A stretch of DNA of 64,000 bases from Chloroflexota bacterium (GTDB lineage: Bacteria > Chloroflexota > Anaerolineae > Promineifilales > Promineifilaceae): the NCBI GenBank assembly GCA_013112725.1, contig JABFFZ010000011.1:1-64000 (forward strand), written 5' to 3'. Shown here one piece after another: positions 5,817-11,458 of this stretch. The notes under the pieces were generated by a model. That model saw only the letters and a list, made by a program, of their open reading frames with translations, made no database searches and had not been told where the DNA came from. The position numbers were made by a program, and so were the translations under genes. Positions within the stretch are counted from its first letter, which is position 1, and each line of letters starts with the position of its first letter.

Positions 5817-5829
5817 TGTGAAACAAACT

Positions 5830-7029
5830 ATGTCTGATGAAACAAACGAAATAACTGCCCCCCTCATTGTCATTACCGATCCTGACGCTGACCGCTACCA
5901 CACCTTTGGCTACATTAGCTGGTGGCAGCAAGAAGTGGTGCGCAACGCCACCGTCCTGGTGGTGGGCGCGGGCGCATTGGGTAATGAAGTCCTCAAAAAT
6001 CTGGCCCTCATGGGCATTGGCAATCTGCTCATCGCCGACTTCGACACCATCGAAGAGAGTAACCTCAGCCGCTCCGTCCTCTTCCGCGAAGGCGACCGGG
6101 GGCGGCGCAAAGTGGACGCCGCCGCCGAGCGTGTCAAAGAACTCAACCCCGACGTCAACGTCAAAATATGGCACGGCAACATCAACTTTGAGATGGGGCT
6201 GGGTGTCTACCGCCATGTAGACGCCATCATCGGCTGCCTGGACAACCGCGAAGCCCGCCTCTCTATCAACCGCGCCAGTTGGGCGGTCAACCGTCCCTGG
6301 GTAGATGGCGCGATTCAGGAACTGATGGGCATTGCCCGCGTCTTCTGGCCGGGCCAGGGGGCATGTTATGAATGTACGCTCACCGACCTGGATTACCAGA
6401 TCATCAATCTGCGTTACTCCTGCCCGCTGCTGGCGCGAGAGAACATATTGCAGGGCAAGGTGCCCACCACCCCCACCAGCGCCTCCATTGTAGCCGCCTT
6501 CCAGACGCAGGAGGCGCTCAAGCTCATTCACAATATGGAAGTGCAGCCAGGCAAGGCGATTATGATTAACGGCCTGACGAATGACATCTACATCACCGAG
6601 TATCCGGTGAAGGAGATGTGCATGAGCCATTCCATGCTGGAACCGATTATCGAACTGCCGCAAGCCACAACAGAAGGAACCAGGCTGGCTGAGTTATTGG
6701 AAATAGCGCGCAAAGAGGTGGGGGACACGGCCGTACTCGAATTCGACGGCGAACTGGTGACAACCATGACCTGCTTCCGCTGTAACCAAACCGAACCCAT
6801 CTTCAAAAAAATGGCCCGCCTGTATGAAAACGAAGCCGTCTGCCCCACCTGCGGCGGTCGGCGCGAAATGAACCTGACCCACCGCATCAGCGGCGATGAG
6901 GATTTCCTGGATCGCACCCTGGCTGAAATAGACATCCCCCCGCTCAGCATCATCCGCGCCCGCAATGGCAGCCAGCGCGTGTATTATGAACTGACCGGAG
7001 ATAAAGAGAGTTTTTTGGTGTTTGGGTAA
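5830..7029 (+). CDS. E1-like ubiquitin-activating (ThiF/MoeB/Uba-type) enzyme
   Basis: 399 residues from ATG 5830 (a GTG at 5818 is possible; neither has a strong Shine-Dalgarno). Rossmann adenylation domain: GAGALG 46-51, Asp72, N78LSR81, Lys94 and Asp138 in GCLDN match the ATP-binding residues of the E1 superfamily. 'CYECTLTD' places Cys182 where UBA2/UBA3-type E1s have their catalytic CT motif; a second Cys198 is in YSCPLL. 'PTTPTSASIVAAFQTQEALK' matches the E1 segment after the Cys domain. The C-terminal part (about 280-399) has a zinc-ribbon-like CxxC pair (C315/C318, C338/C341). Expected role: adenylate the Ubl encoded next door and pass it to the E2. It lacks the long Cys-domain insertion of eukaryotic UBA1. 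Confidence 0.92.
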   Translation: MSDETNEITAPLIVITDPDADRYHTFGYISWWQQEVVRNATVLVVGAGALGNEVLKNLALMGIGNLLIADFDTIEESNLSRSVLFREGDRGRRKVDAAAERVKELNPDVNVKIWHGNINFEMGLGVYRHVDAIIGCLDNREARLSINRASWAVNRPWVDGAIQELMGIARVFWPGQGACYECTLTDLDYQIINLRYSCPLLARENILQGKVPTTPTSASIVAAFQTQEALKLIHNMEVQPGKAIMINGLTNDIYITEYPVKEMCMSHSMLEPIIELPQATTEGTRLAELLEIARKEVGDTAVLEFDGELVTTMTCFRCNQTEPIFKKMARLYENEAVCPTCGGRREMNLTHRISGDEDFLDRTLAEIDIPPLSIIRARNGSQRVYYELTGDKESFLVFG

Positions 7030-7030
7030 G

Positions 7031-7083
7031 TGAGTAATTGGGTAATTGGGTAATTACGCAATTACTTAATTACCCAATTACCT
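7031..7083. repeat. Inverted repeat, TAATTGGG family
   Basis: Tandem TAATTGGG octamers face AATTACCC octamers around a short loop, directly after the E1 stop. Further copies lie at 9227, 10404, 16033, 56465 and 63303. Downstream, TATAAA at 7116-7121 could be a -10 box for the Ubl gene, but I see no convincing -35. Confidence 0.85.
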
Positions 7084-7167
7084 CCTCTTCCCGCAACCCA
7101 AAATCCGTCTTATCGTATAAAATAGCGTTACCCGCTAGTTAAGAAAATAAATGGAGGCTTAAACAAA

Positions 7168-7437
7168 ATGGCTACTAGCATCAAAGTGATTATCTATGAC
7201 CCCACCGGCTCCAAGAAGACCCCGGTCGAACTACCCGCCGATGTGCCCATGCGCCGCCTGATTCCGGCGCTGGTGAGCAAAATGGGGCTGCCCACCAACC
7301 AGGGCGCCAACCCCATCACCTACCGGCTGGATCATCGTTCGTCTGGCAAACGGCTGGGTGATGATGAGTCGTTGAAGGATGCGGGCGTGCAAGATGACGA
7401 CATCTTGAGCCTGTTCCCAGAAGTGACTGCTGGCTAA
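7168..7437 (+). CDS. Ubiquitin-like protein modifier (beta-grasp)
   Basis: 89 residues from ATG 7168 with GGAGG about 10 nt upstream. The pattern 'IKVIIYDPTGSKKTPVELP', 'MRRLIPALVSKMGLP', 'ITYRLDHRSSGKRLGDDESL', 'AGVQDDDILSLFPE' matches ubiquitin: first hairpin, central helix, 'G..L.DD.TL.D..I..GD.L'. The C terminus ends ...TAG with a single terminal Gly and no pro-tail, so it would need no processing before adenylation. ThiS/MoaD sulfur carriers are disfavoured by the E2 and JAMM neighbours; YukD/EsaB is disfavoured by lack of type VII genes. It sits between the E1 and E2 genes. Confidence 0.88.
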   Translation: MATSIKVIIYDPTGSKKTPVELPADVPMRRLIPALVSKMGLPTNQGANPITYRLDHRSSGKRLGDDESLKDAGVQDDDILSLFPEVTAG

Positions 7438-7438
7438 A

Positions 7439-7472
7439 GAGAAATCGGGTTTTTGACAAAAACCCGGTTTCT
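7439..7472. repeat. Hairpin between Ubl and E2 genes
   Basis: AGAAATCGGGTTTTTG pairs with AAAAACCCGGTTTCT across a 3-4 nt loop, filling the spacer between the Ubl stop and the E2 ribosome-binding site. It lacks a run of T after the stem, so it could adjust expression between the two genes without being a strong terminator. Confidence 0.75.
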
Positions 7473-7485
7473 GACTGAGGAAAAC

Positions 7486-8019
7486 ATGGCCTTTGACATC
7501 CGCGAGACCAGACTGCGCAACGAATATCAGCGGGTGCGTGATCTGGTGAATCGCAGCGAATTTATCCATATTCTGACCACGGAAGGCGACCCCGCCGAAC
7601 GGTACCTGATCCGCTTCACCTGTAAGGGGGTGGAAAAGATTGATACGGTCGGCAAACCTATCCTCCGTGAGAACCATGAGGTAAGCGTTTACCTTCATGC
7701 CGAGTACCCACTCAAACAGCCGCAGTTGAAGTGGCTGACGCCGATTTTTCATCCTAACATTCACGTCACCGGCGCGGTGTGCATTGGCGCCTGGTGGCCG
7801 GCGAAAACGCTAGACGAGCTACTACTGACGTTGGGGGAAATGATTCAGTATAAGAATTATGACCCCAAAGACCCCATGAACTCGAAGGCGGCAGCCTGGG
7901 CCCTGCGCAACAAAGGACTTTTTCCGGTTGACGGCCGTGACCTGAAAGGTCAATCGCTGGCAGACCTGATCGTCCTGGGGGCGGAGGAAGTAGATGACAT
8001 CGGCATCAACATACTCTGA
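7486..8019 (+). CDS. E2-like ubiquitin-conjugating enzyme (UBC fold)
   Basis: 177 residues from ATG 7486, chosen because TGAGG lies 5 nt upstream; an in-frame TTG at 7453 falls in the hairpin. Canonical UBC core: 'YPLKQPQLKWLTPIFHPNIH' region with HPN at 89-91, then catalytic Cys99 in GAVCIG, 'WWPAKTLDELLLTLGEMI', and 'DPKDPMNSKAAA' matching the E2 'NPDDPLNPEAA' segment. This is a full E2 with the eukaryote-type HPN triad, not a degenerate relative. It should take the Ubl as thioester from the E1. The stop overlaps the start of the first JAMM gene by 26 nt, implying translational coupling. Confidence 0.94.
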   Translation: MAFDIRETRLRNEYQRVRDLVNRSEFIHILTTEGDPAERYLIRFTCKGVEKIDTVGKPILRENHEVSVYLHAEYPLKQPQLKWLTPIFHPNIHVTGAVCIGAWWPAKTLDELLLTLGEMIQYKNYDPKDPMNSKAAAWALRNKGLFPVDGRDLKGQSLADLIVLGAEEVDDIGINIL

Positions 8020-9229
8020 GCCAACCCCCGCCCCGGCCCCACCCCCGGCCAATCCCCTACCGGAAGAAGTGCTGAATTTGCCCAAACGGCCGTCACCGCT
8101 GCCGGTGGAAACATGTATTTTGCATGGGCAACGGCCGTCCGCCGGGCAGGTGGTAGTGGCGAACAGCCAGCACGCCCTGGCCCAAATTGCCGACCACAGC
8201 GAAAGCAATCTGCGCTCGGAGTTGGGCGGCGTCCTGCTGGGCCACGTTTCCCGCGACGGCGAAACGCTGCTGGTAGACATCAAGGCCGCCCTGCCCGTCA
8301 ACAGCAGCGACCGGGGGCCGGTGCATTTCACCTTCAACGCCGACGCCTGGAGCCAGATTCACCGCGACCGCAGCGCCCGCTATCCGCATCTGGATATTGT
8401 GGGCTGGTTTCACACCCATCCGGGGTTGGGTGTTTTTTATTCCAGCGATGATGTGGTTGTCCATTCGGCGGCGTTTACGCTGCCCTGGCACGTGGGGCTG
8501 GTGGTAGACCCGGTGCGGCAAGAAGCCGTTTACTTCGGCTGGCAAAAAGGGGTACTGGCCCCCATTAACGGCTATTACGAATTGACCGATGTGCAGCCAG
8601 GCACGGCCGTACCCTGGAAAGTGGTGCGTACATCTGTTTACAACCTGCCCGAATCAGACCTGGCCAGCGGCGTCTATGACCCGGCGGTGCAGTCAACCCG
8701 GCTGGCCGAAGCGGCTTATGGCAGCCACAGCCAGGGCATGACGTTTTCCCCCTCTTCGCGCCATCTGGGGCTGATCGTGGGCAGCGTGGCCCTGGCGTTG
8801 GCGCTGTTCATGCTGCTTTTCTGGATTGTGCCGCTGAACCGCCAGACCAGCCAGATGCAAACAGTGGTCTTGAACATGGCCAATAGCAGCGCCTATCCCA
8901 ATGCCGCCGCCTGCCCCGACCCCCGCCTGCGGTTGATTGCGCCCTTGAATGGCAGCGCAGCGCGGATGGGCAGCCAGGTAGAATTGTTGGGCACGGCCGT
9001 GTACCCCGCTGCCTTCCGTTACCAGATTGACGTGCGCTTGAGTGGGCAGCAGGAGTGGCAAAAAGTGGACGACCGCCGCCGCCCGGCCGAACTGGATGTG
9101 CTGGGAAGCTGGAACACCGGCGAACGCGCCCCCGGCCTGTATGATGTGCGGCTGACGGCCGTAGACCGCAACGCCATCCGCCTGCCGAACAGCCCTGACT
9201 GTGTCATTCAAATGCAACTCATACCGTAA
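7994..9229 (+). CDS. JAMM/JAB metallopeptidase, membrane-anchored, with C-terminal outer domain
   Basis: 411 residues; GGAGG sits 6 nt before ATG 7994, inside the E2 gene. The JAMM motif is complete: Glu76 (SELGG), H140-T-H142-P-x6-S150-x2-D153, the zinc site of Rpn11/CSN5-type deubiquitinases. Residues 1-45 are Pro-rich. A single membrane helix lies at about 257-280, followed by a 130-residue Ig/beta-sandwich-like domain ('PRLRLIAPLNGSAARMG', 'PGLYDVRLTAVD') expected outside the cell. So the peptidase faces the cytoplasm and is tethered to the membrane. Likely role: remove or process the Ubl, possibly near a membrane target. Confidence 0.9.
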   Translation: MTSASTYSEPTPAPAPPPANPLPEEVLNLPKRPSPLPVETCILHGQRPSAGQVVVANSQHALAQIADHSESNLRSELGGVLLGHVSRDGETLLVDIKAALPVNSSDRGPVHFTFNADAWSQIHRDRSARYPHLDIVGWFHTHPGLGVFYSSDDVVVHSAAFTLPWHVGLVVDPVRQEAVYFGWQKGVLAPINGYYELTDVQPGTAVPWKVVRTSVYNLPESDLASGVYDPAVQSTRLAEAAYGSHSQGMTFSPSSRHLGLIVGSVALALALFMLLFWIVPLNRQTSQMQTVVLNMANSSAYPNAAACPDPRLRLIAPLNGSAARMGSQVELLGTAVYPAAFRYQIDVRLSGQQEWQKVDDRRRPAELDVLGSWNTGERAPGLYDVRLTAVDRNAIRLPNSPDCVIQMQLIP

Positions 9230-9292
9230 TTGGGTAATTAGGTAATTAGGTAATTGGCCCAATTACTCAATTACTCAATTACCCAATTACCT
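9227..9292. repeat. Inverted repeat, TAATTGGG family
   Basis: TAATTGGGTAATTAGG-type octamers face AATTACTC/AATTACCC octamers. The repeat begins with the stop codon of the first JAMM gene and ends 8 nt before the second JAMM start. Confidence 0.85.
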
Positions 9293-9300
9293 CTTCCACT

Positions 9301-10407
9301 ATGAACGACGAAACCACACCACCCTTTGTCGCCATTATCAACCTGACGCTGCCCGGTTTGGGTGAACGGTTCAGCGCCAATGTGACGCTGCTGCCGCAGG
9401 ATATGATTCCAACGGACGGCCGTGCCAAACCCCTGCAAGACTGTACCCTGGCCGATCTGCAAGCATATGCCAGCCACCTTGAAGCAGAGGTATGGGAAAC
9501 GTACCAGGAAATCAAGCTGGTAGAAATCGCCAGTGATGAAAACATTCAGCTAGACATTACCATTCACGATGCCGATGGCGACCCGATTGCGCCGGACGAG
9601 GAATGGCTAAAAACGATGGTCGTCTCGTTCCCAGAACCGGTGGCTGATGCCGCTCGTTCTGTGACGGAAACGCCAACTGTTGCCGGGGAGATAGCCGCCG
9701 ACACGGCCGTACCCGAACCAACCACGCCGCCTGAACCGCAGCCGGAACCGGCGTCGGTCGCTGAAGAAGTCGCCGAACCGCGCATTATTGTGGCCGAGAC
9801 GGAATCCGTGCATGAAGAGACAGCAGCAGAAGAGCCAAGGGCCGTGTCCGAAACACCGACCATCGCCCCCAGCCGCGCCCGCGTGCGCATTGCCGGCAAA
9901 CGGCGCCCGATTGGCGACCCCACCTGGGCGGCGGTAGATATTTTCATTGAAGAACCGGCGCTGCGCGCATCCCAGGCGCACGCCCTCAGCAGCCTGAACC
10001 GGGAAGTGGCCGGGGTGCTGGTTGGCCCCCGCCCGGAGAAACAGCCAGACGGCCGTTACATCGTCCACATTCACGATACTATCATTGCCAAATATACCGT
10101 TATGCACGGGGCCAGCGTCACCTACACGCCGGAAAGCTGGCGTTATATGAATGATGTATTGCACGAACGGTATCCAGACGACACGGCCGTGATGGTCGGC
10201 TGGTACCATACCCATCCCGGCTTTGGCATCTTCCTGTCCGGCATGGATTTATTCATTCACCAGAATTTCTTCACCCAAATCTGGCACGTCGCGTTTGTAC
10301 TCGACCCCCGCGCCCACACCAGCGGCTTTTTCTGCTGGAATCGCCACCTCACGGAAGTGAAACCGGTAGATTTCCCCTGGCCGGCCTGGGCGGCAGGGTC
10401 GTGGTAA
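9301..10407 (+). CDS. Second JAMM/JAB metallopeptidase, soluble, with N-terminal extension
   Basis: 368 residues from ATG 9301. Residues 1-110 form a distinct N-terminal domain of strands and one helix, unidentified. Residues 112-195 are a Pro/Glu/Ala/Thr linker. The C-terminal JAMM domain has Glu235 (REVAG) and H303-T-H305-P-x6-S313-x2-D316. No membrane segment is present, unlike the neighbouring paralogue, so the two peptidases probably act in different places or on different conjugates. The 5' spacer carries the TAATTGGG repeat and no clear Shine-Dalgarno. Confidence 0.9.
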   Translation: MNDETTPPFVAIINLTLPGLGERFSANVTLLPQDMIPTDGRAKPLQDCTLADLQAYASHLEAEVWETYQEIKLVEIASDENIQLDITIHDADGDPIAPDEEWLKTMVVSFPEPVADAARSVTETPTVAGEIAADTAVPEPTTPPEPQPEPASVAEEVAEPRIIVAETESVHEETAAEEPRAVSETPTIAPSRARVRIAGKRRPIGDPTWAAVDIFIEEPALRASQAHALSSLNREVAGVLVGPRPEKQPDGRYIVHIHDTIIAKYTVMHGASVTYTPESWRYMNDVLHERYPDDTAVMVGWYHTHPGFGIFLSGMDLFIHQNFFTQIWHVAFVLDPRAHTSGFFCWNRHLTEVKPVDFPWPAWAAGSW

Positions 10408-10496
10408 TTGAGTAATTGCGGAATTGGGTAATTAAAGAGTGGGTAATTGTTGTATAATGCCCACAATTACGCAATTGCCAAATTACCCAATTACTT
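10404..10496. repeat. TAATTGGG-family inverted repeat with TATAAT in the loop
   Basis: Degenerate TAATTGAG/TAATTGCG/AATTGGG units on the left face AATTACGC, AATTGCC and AATTACCC on the right. A perfect TATAAT (10453-10458) lies in the central region, so the repeat may carry a promoter for the two RING genes; no good -35 is visible. Confidence 0.75.
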
Positions 10497-10502
10497 CTTA
10501 AG

Positions 10503-10934
10503 ATGGCCGAACAAGAATTACCACCCATCACCATTACGGATAATGACATCAACGAAGTAAACCAGCTCAGTTTGCATTGTCCTATTTGCGCCAACCCGGT
10601 AGAAAACCATATGACCGAGCGGGCGTTGCAGCCGGTTGTGTGCCGCCAATGTGGTACGCTGTATCACAAAGTGTGCTGGGAACAGGGTGGCGGCAAATGC
10701 GCTGTGTTGGGCTGTGCCCACACGGAATACCGCGTCTACGGCACCCAAATGCGCCCGGTGTTGAAGGTAGAGTATAAAGATATACCCAAACCGCCATTGA
10801 ACGGCCGTCCCCCCATCTCCCCCACCACCAAACAACTCAAAGAACAACAACGTCGCCAGGTGGAACAACTCCGCCGCCCCGGCCTGCTGCAGCGCCTCTG
10901 GCAATGGCTGCTCGACCAGATCAAGATCGGGTAG
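10503..10934 (+). CDS. RING-like zinc-finger protein, candidate E3
   Basis: 143 residues. Eight candidate ligands in RING order: C26-x2-C29, C47-x2-C50, H55-x2-C58, C66-x4-C71, with 'LYHKVCW' typical of RING and related treble-clef folds. Linker 80-110 is Pro-rich. The C-terminal helix ('LLQRLWQWLLDQIKIG') is amphipathic and might contact membrane or partner. Placement straight after E1, Ubl, E2 and two JAMM genes supports an E3-like or adaptor role; a prokaryotic RING has been described in such neighbourhoods by Burroughs, Iyer and Aravind. Activity is inferred. Confidence 0.82.
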   Translation: MAEQELPPITITDNDINEVNQLSLHCPICANPVENHMTERALQPVVCRQCGTLYHKVCWEQGGGKCAVLGCAHTEYRVYGTQMRPVLKVEYKDIPKPPLNGRPPISPTTKQLKEQQRRQVEQLRRPGLLQRLWQWLLDQIKIG

Positions 10935-11009
10935 CACGTGGCAAGTAGCAGGTGGCAGGTAATCACCGCGTTGCCTTCATCGCTCACCCCTTCACCTGCT
11001 CACCTCATC
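10931..11009. repeat. Intergenic repeat (GTGGCAAGTAGCAGGTGGCAG family)
   Basis: CACGTGGCAAGTAGCAGGTG on the left faces CACCTGCTCACCTCATCACC on the right, ending just before the second RING gene. The same family lies at 43281-43342 and around 59551-59640. Confidence 0.6.
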
Positions 11010-11017
11010 ACCCCATC

Positions 11018-11458
11018 ATGCTTCTCCCCATCACCGTTGACAAGCAATCCCCCTTTCTGGGCGAGGAGTGCGCCCTGTGCAAAGACCCGCTGACACCGGG
11101 TGATGTGGTCATCGTCTGCCCCGAAGATGGCAGCCGTCACCATGATCGCTGCTGGATAGCCAACGGCAACAAATGCGCCGCCTACGGCTGCCGGGGTCAC
11201 GGCGAAATCACCCTGGCGTCCGCGCCGCCGGCATCCGCGCCGCCGGCACCTGCTCACCCTCTCACCCCCTCACCTGCTCATACTCGTCCCCCTGCTCACT
11301 ACACCCTCGCCAACAGCTGCCTCATCCTGGCTATCGCCATCGCCATTATCCTCTGCGCTGTGGGCTGTTTTGGGTTGTGGGCCATTGCCGACTATCTGAT
11401 GCTGCACGTCTGGAATCTACCCTACCGCGCCCCCTTCTCCGGTTTTATCTTGCCTTGA
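11018..11458 (+). CDS. Membrane-anchored RING-like zinc protein
   Basis: 146 residues from ATG 11018; the upstream in-frame GTG at 10952 falls in an intergenic repeat and is rejected. Ligand series C18-x2-C21, C34, H41/H42, C45, C53, C58 resembles the first RING protein ('RHHDRCW...NKCAAYGC' versus 'LYHKVCW...GKCAVLGC'), so they are paralogues. An Ala/Pro linker (66-95) leads to one hydrophobic helix (about 98-122). The zinc domain should be cytoplasmic and tethered. Candidate E3 or recruiter working with the membrane-anchored JAMM. Last gene of the locus; convergent with the response regulator 47 bp away. Confidence 0.8.
   Translation: MLLPITVDKQSPFLGEECALCKDPLTPGDVVIVCPEDGSRHHDRCWIANGNKCAAYGCRGHGEITLASAPPASAPPAPAHPLTPSPAHTRPPAHYTLANSCLILAIAIAIILCAVGCFGLWAIADYLMLHVWNLPYRAPFSGFILP

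Follow-up and report, generated by a model that had tools for sequence, protein, structure and literature searches.

Contig JABFFZ010000011.1 of a Chloroflexota bacterium of the family Promineifilaceae (assembly GCA_013112725.1; its positions 1 to 64,000, 64,000 nucleotides in all, are called the window) carries seven adjacent open reading frames (ORFs). In the ORF list all are on the + strand between 5830 and 11458, and their products are predicted, with good confidence, to carry out every step of a ubiquitin-like cycle, located at the cytoplasmic membrane. They are predicted to be an activating enzyme (E1), a ubiquitin-like modifier (Ubl), a conjugating enzyme (E2), two JAMM peptidases and two RING proteins. 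We infer the order of reactions, isopeptide chemistry directed to lysine, the substrates, the location and a non-degradative, signalling-type outcome. The window is contig C11 of a host assembly of 5.5 Mb which is 83% complete. In the family the cascade apparently is a core property passed on vertically, the vertical cause being deduced from the pattern of its occurrence and divergence.

According to the proposed mechanism the YukD-type Ubl would be adenylated at Gly89 by the E1, which would then hold it on Cys198 until the E2 receives it on Cys99. The two RING proteins likely steer the Ubl onto target proteins. Trimming of the Ubl precursor and later removal of the Ubl from its targets would fall to the two JAMM peptidases. 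A presumably outer C-terminal domain of JAMM1 with two invariant Cys may tie deconjugation to the state of the envelope. As to the process that is regulated, membrane remodelling is our best guess and is meant as a lead only; it is suggested by the frequent link of the E1 to a dynamin-like GTPase pair.

A preliminary description of this DNA had claimed seven consecutive same-strand genes which cover E1, Ubl, E2, RING and JAMM classes. All ORFs were recovered at that place and strand, and sequence families and motifs agree for all seven (Table 1). The genes are under purifying selection, i.e., ratios of nonsynonymous to synonymous substitution (dN/dS) are 0.01-0.41, with 0.010-0.041 for Ubl and 0.161-0.409 for JAMM1 (three pairs each; dS is near or above saturation and the values are rough). 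Thus, they are real genes. Probably they constitute an operon. It is bordered by a divergent gene resembling a pseudouridine synthase and a convergent gene resembling a response regulator, both identified by eye from the ORF list. The reading frames of E2 and JAMM1 share 26 bases; the E1 has an alternative GTG start upstream, at 5818. Promoter and terminator scans (4 vs 3.4 and 10 vs 6.3 in shuffled sequences, respectively) are not taken as evidence. The alignments used throughout comprise the window sequence and a subset of homologues chosen for spread: E1 19 of 36, JAMM1 20 of 36, JAMM2 23 of 32, RING1 26 of 32 and RING2 18 of 23. Three mis-started E1 ORFs (4, 11 and 11 amino acids) and truncated ones were excluded by length before profiles were built.

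Table 1. Genes of the probable operon, with positions in the window and predicted features.
Gene	Position	Strand	Features
E1	5830..7029	+	ThiF/MoeB-type adenylation domain; Pfam ThiF 5.9e-54
Ubl	7168..7437	+	YukD family, 89 amino acids, end ...PEVTAG (Gly89); PF08817 1e-12
E2	7486..8019	+	UBC domain, HPN, predicted catalytic Cys99, WWPA loop; PF00179 (UQ_con) 7.7e-14
JAMM1	7994..9229	+	JAB domain (HTHPGLGVFYSSDD), one hydrophobic segment at about residues 261-279, C-terminal domain
JAMM2	9301..10407	+	no membrane segment; Rpn11-like MPN domain (HTHPGFGIFLSGMD) after a low-confidence N-terminal domain and linker
RING1	10503..10934	+	C4HC3 RING, no membrane segment, conserved C-terminal helix
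RING2	11018..11458	+	RING, Asp38 likely eighth ligand; C-terminal membrane segment; start ATG 11018

The E1 has eukaryotic E1s as its top PDB sequence matches (4e-33). Cys182 had been proposed as its catalytic residue, a proposal which we reject in view of its variation: it is Ser in 7 of the 20 aligned E1s, whereas C198 in the motif SCPLLAREN is invariant (20/20). Most likely then, C198 is the catalytic residue. We take SCPLL to be the counterpart of the loop which holds the catalytic Cys in eukaryotic E1s; the PDB alignments as printed end ahead of it. A different picture emerges for C179, C264, C315, C318, C338 and C341. They are jointly lost in the identical nine of 20 E1s, and C182 is lost in seven of those nine. 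Such joint loss is the pattern expected for zinc ligands; C182 therefore most likely is one, and together the seven cysteines are a probable zinc-ligand set. Nine of the 20 E1s appear to have switched to a zinc-free form, six cysteines having disappeared together and the seventh in seven cases. The C-terminal part of the E1 gave no support for a UFD-like domain (probability 1.5% against a Ubl profile, no PDB match). In the two relatives scanned (L034:10918-12657 and L112:7010-8740) the E1 begins with a GntR DNA-binding domain, and this fused form may double as a transcription regulator.

The E2 aligns with yeast Ubc1 across HPNI..G.vC (5e-13). HPN and the Cys predicted to be catalytic, both claimed in the preliminary description, are retained in 45/45 family E2s and in 37/37 distant ones (Cys99 is number 98 in the E2 alignment, from which Met1 is absent). 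The W-P-A loop, a loose pattern, resembles that of ubiquitin E2s.

The Ubl is 82-100% identical across family loci. An E2 profile search of genome contigs yielded 378 relatives, of which the best 80 were retained for reading the Ubl; they contain 75 free copies and 26 fused to E2. The C-terminal Gly, also pointed out previously, is borne out by a (T/V)AG motif in 74/74 complete free copies, one more being cut by a contig end. The motif is terminal in 67 of the 74 and followed by 1-9 extra residues in seven. All 26 Ubl~E2 fusions show TAG, then roughly 3-10 variable residues and then the E2 match. Short tails and fusions thus break directly after (T/V)AG, as in ubiquitin precursors. Gly89 accordingly is the likely point of activation, implying that the C-terminal glycine is exposed by processing. 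For FtsH ternary systems, in which Ubl~E2 proteins likewise occur, it has been suggested that a JAB peptidase could free the Ubl from multidomain proteins (PMC7159879, available part). No WXG100/EccC-type domain was detected by Pfam in the genes scanned, i.e., the seven operon genes and three conserved upstream genes. A second YukD domain is encoded elsewhere in the host genome, on contig C105 (L180:5496-6131), followed by an FHA-looking domain (by eye). It adjoins kinase-like and FHA/vWA-like genes and lacks a TAG end; probably it is a non-conjugated YukD.

The preliminary description further held that two intact HxHPx6SxxD sites are present and that the JAMM and RING pairs each have one membrane-anchored member. 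Both statements stand. The site is intact in 21/21 JAMM1 and 24/24 JAMM2 sequences. A membrane segment, defined as a Kyte-Doolittle 19-residue mean of at least 1.8, is predicted in JAMM1 (21/21) and RING2 (19/19) and absent from JAMM2 (0/24) and RING1 (0/27). These segments point to a cycle near the membrane, with a topology that we deduce. C307 and C403 in the C-terminal domain of JAMM1 are present in 21/21 sequences; on this presumed topology they possibly form an outside disulfide. Pfam matches for the two JAMM genes are Prok-JAB (1.5e-10) and JAB (1.4e-8). The top PDB sequence match of JAMM2 is Caldiarchaeum Rpn11. Fold prediction, recommended earlier as a check, was carried out for JAMM2 and RING1, and both models resemble the expected folds: that of JAMM2 matches the Rpn11 MPN fold (2.8e-8), that of RING1 (AlphaFold2) resembles E3 RINGs. 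VIA-align leaves other treble clefs possible for RING1, with no PHD finger among the matches listed. No name can be assigned to the N-terminal domain of JAMM2 because the model confidence (pLDDT) is too low.

As for the zinc modules, described as having eight or seven ligands, RING1 is a C4HC3 protein with all eight ligands in 27/27 sequences. The seven-ligand part probably does not hold: besides the seven Cys/His that never vary, RING2 has an almost constant Asp38, which probably is the eighth ligand; in one locus (L082) a Cys occupies this position. The prokaryotic RING pattern is given as C4HC3 with a longer last spacing in the available part of a 2024 review (PMC11354881). Against Prok-RING_1 (PF14446, cut-off 29.1) RING2 scores 33.4 (4.5e-8), whereas RING1 with 28.5 (1.5e-6) remains 0.6 bits below, reaching 29.4 in the genome scan.

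How widely is the operon distributed? With the E2 of the window as a query, matches were obtained in 32 of 35 genomes of the same family, host included, in one of four genomes of other families of the order, and in 0/20 of the class. An E2 profile found 14 of 400 genomes sampled across the phylum, three of these from the window's family, which includes Promineifilum. The family genomes without an E2 are G016, G020 and G021; G016 has E1, YukD and RING pieces, and G020 has no close match to these. We analysed 45 family loci chosen by E2 similarity and termed them testable when the flank sufficed. All seven genes occur in the order E1-Ubl-E2-JAMM1-JAMM2-RING1-RING2 at 18/25 testable loci; scattered, unrelated genes, which had been named as the refuting outcome, were not encountered at the loci tested. 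Individually, E1 is present in 31/34, JAMM1 in 37/37, JAMM2 in 29/29, RING1 in 28/28 and RING2 in 20/28. Hence the pairing of RINGs noted earlier is found in the window, yet it is not constant.

Distances of the E2 in 16 family genomes follow those of the full-length ribosomal protein uS12, a small yardstick of one protein (r = 0.90, reached by 0/2000 permutations); for Ubl r is 0.63 (2/2000). Mean pairwise identities in these genomes are 0.908 for Ubl, 0.871 for uS12 and 0.785 for E2. In ten genomes outside the window's genus the identity of Ubl to the window is at least that of uS12 in eight and lower in two. An operon in nearly all sampled family genomes with apparently vertical descent suggests that in this family eukaryote-style tagging likely belongs to the everyday business of the cell and is not an occasionally borrowed defence.

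Relatives outside the family are a genome of the same order (L034), Anaerolineales including Pelolinea submarina and Leptolinea tardivitalis, then Armatimonadota and a few others. In L034 and the Anaerolineales relatives a free Ubl is present in addition to a Ubl~E2 fusion, together with JAB and E1; several also have a RING by profile. One Armatimonadota locus (L107:9977-17505) encodes two E2 proteins, two JAB proteins and three RING proteins, and one of the RINGs has TPR repeats.

Upstream of the E1, on the same strand, much of the family has a dynamin-family GTPase (Dynamin_N 1.8e-12; PDB sequence relatives Slr0869, mitofusin-1 and BDLP), a 408-amino-acid protein without a Pfam match (P408) and often a CAP-domain protein. 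Outside the window's genus P408 lies within 0.9 kb of E1 at 21 of 25 family loci with at least 2.5 kb of flank, the exceptions being L063, L090, L093 and L095; in 11 of the 21 the CAP gene is in between. The dynamin is within 6 kb of E1 at 18 of 22 such loci with at least 4.7 kb of flank. Within the window's genus P408 is next to E1 in none of five loci; in the host P408 and the dynamin are together on contig C8, outside the window. The dynamin is about 12 kb from E1 in G001 and about 9 kb in G005. In G019 and G013 the E1 is apart from the Ubl-E2 block, and P408 is still near it, at a distance of about 2.2 kb in the former and 0.5 kb in the latter. Dynamin and P408 each occur in 34/35 family genomes and in 0/23 others, some only as pieces at contig ends; they are a family-specific core pair. 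They adjoin in most of the genomes that have complete copies of the two (e.g., L082:4252-8166). The downstream flank was rejected as a part of the system, being common to at most 11 of 45 loci versus 24 for the upstream P408. The E1-P408-dynamin linkage is a lead and not a functional proof; shared ancestry in a young family could explain it.

Since known bacterial E1/E2/JAB systems include defence systems, an anti-phage system of the Bil, CBASS or 6E type has to be weighed. PADLOC reports domain-level matches for E1 (E1-E2, 2e-18), JAMM1 (JAB, 9e-9) and JAMM2 (JAB, 7.8e-5), yet these are partial, with no match for Ubl, E2 or RINGs and no full system. Near-universality in the family, a divergence which follows uS12 and a Ubl about as conserved as uS12 render a defence function quite improbable. 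Further, a single-sequence query, which detects close relatives only, found none in viral contigs, and ORFs at 3.0-5.8 and 11.5-16 kb of the window look by eye like pseudouridine synthase, a two-component pair and an ABC transporter. Still less credible is a sulfur-carrier system in which E1 and Ubl deliver sulfur like MoaD/ThiS and the other genes are accessory. The E1 is ThiF/MoeB-like, with an NCBIfam ThiF match of 2.9e-39 that is far below the family cut-off, and it is the sole ThiF-domain gene found in the incomplete host assembly. Yet its partners include a canonical E2 and RINGs, a Pfam scan of the seven genes disclosed no rhodanese domain, and a further, distant ThiF-like gene occurs in many other family genomes.

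The membrane segments in one JAMM and one RING and the dynamin-like neighbour at most testable loci outside the window's genus would also suit a Ubl joined to a membrane lipid, like Atg8, instead of to proteins. This we consider highly unlikely: the E2 is a canonical UBC protein with HPN, Cys and W-P-A loop and presumably not Atg3-like, and both JAMMs are of the isopeptidase type. For the preferred protein-tagging cycle the outcome is probably non-degradative. No proteasome-fold gene above cut-off was found in the 21 of 35 family genomes tested, a search which did not extend to other proteases, and this makes a reversible tag more likely. It is tempting, albeit speculative and rather doubtful, to go further. 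A housekeeping Ubl pathway, its E1 tied to P408-dynamin and RING2 and JAMM1 at the membrane, might control the mitofusin/BDLP-like dynamin, and proteasome-free reversible tagging might switch remodelling or envelope proteins on a signal sensed by the outer domain of JAMM1.

A core, slowly evolving E1/E2/RING/JAMM cascade with no proteasome found would be a simple system to ask what non-degradative tagging does. Pelolinea submarina MO-CFX1 and Leptolinea tardivitalis YMTK-2, both cultured, carry the related Ubl~E2 form, which opens this question to experiment.

Experimentally studied bacterial ubiquitin-type cascades are mostly mobile defence systems, and Bil has a defence role. Burroughs, Iyer and Aravind reportedly described prokaryotic RING-containing operons with a YukD-like Ubl in 2011; E1, E2, YukD-like Ubl, JAB and RING are shared with the operon of the window. 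RING-type operons are sporadically dispersed and frequently absent from close relatives according to the available part of PMC4197634; the family-wide core reported here is the opposite. It further differs in having two JAMMs, two RINGs in most loci, membrane members and, in most testable family loci outside the window's genus, the P408-dynamin neighbourhood. That such a system was not known as characterised agrees with our literature searches, which yielded no paper on one in Promineifilum or Anaerolineae (subscription literature was thinly covered), although predictions of RING-type Ubl operons, Ubl~E2 fusions among them, are already in print (PMC7159879, in the portion at hand).

FtsH ternary conflict systems, as far as that portion describes them, share JAB, E1, RING and a Ubl~E2 protein; in contrast, MoxR, vWA and FtsH domains are absent from the window's seven genes and the three scanned upstream genes, and Ubl~E2 fusions occur in non-family relatives, not in the window. 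In Caldiarchaeum subterraneum Ub, E1, E2, E3 and an Rpn11-related JAMM are clustered (PMC4197634, same part); unlike there, the Ubl of the window is of the YukD family and ends in AG, JAMM and RING genes come in twos, the host is bacterial and no proteasome was found. BilABCD shares Ubl, E1, E2 and JAMM as well as precursor trimming which exposes a C-terminal Gly, yet in the accessible text of PMC11354881 no RING is named for Bil, the Ubl domain is present twice in BilA and BilD is an inactive-plus-active double E1, whereas the window has RINGs and one of each. Thus, the kind of system is already known; as far as these searches go, what is new is its core status, the soluble and membrane-bound pairs, C198 as the likely catalytic residue and the dynamin neighbourhood.

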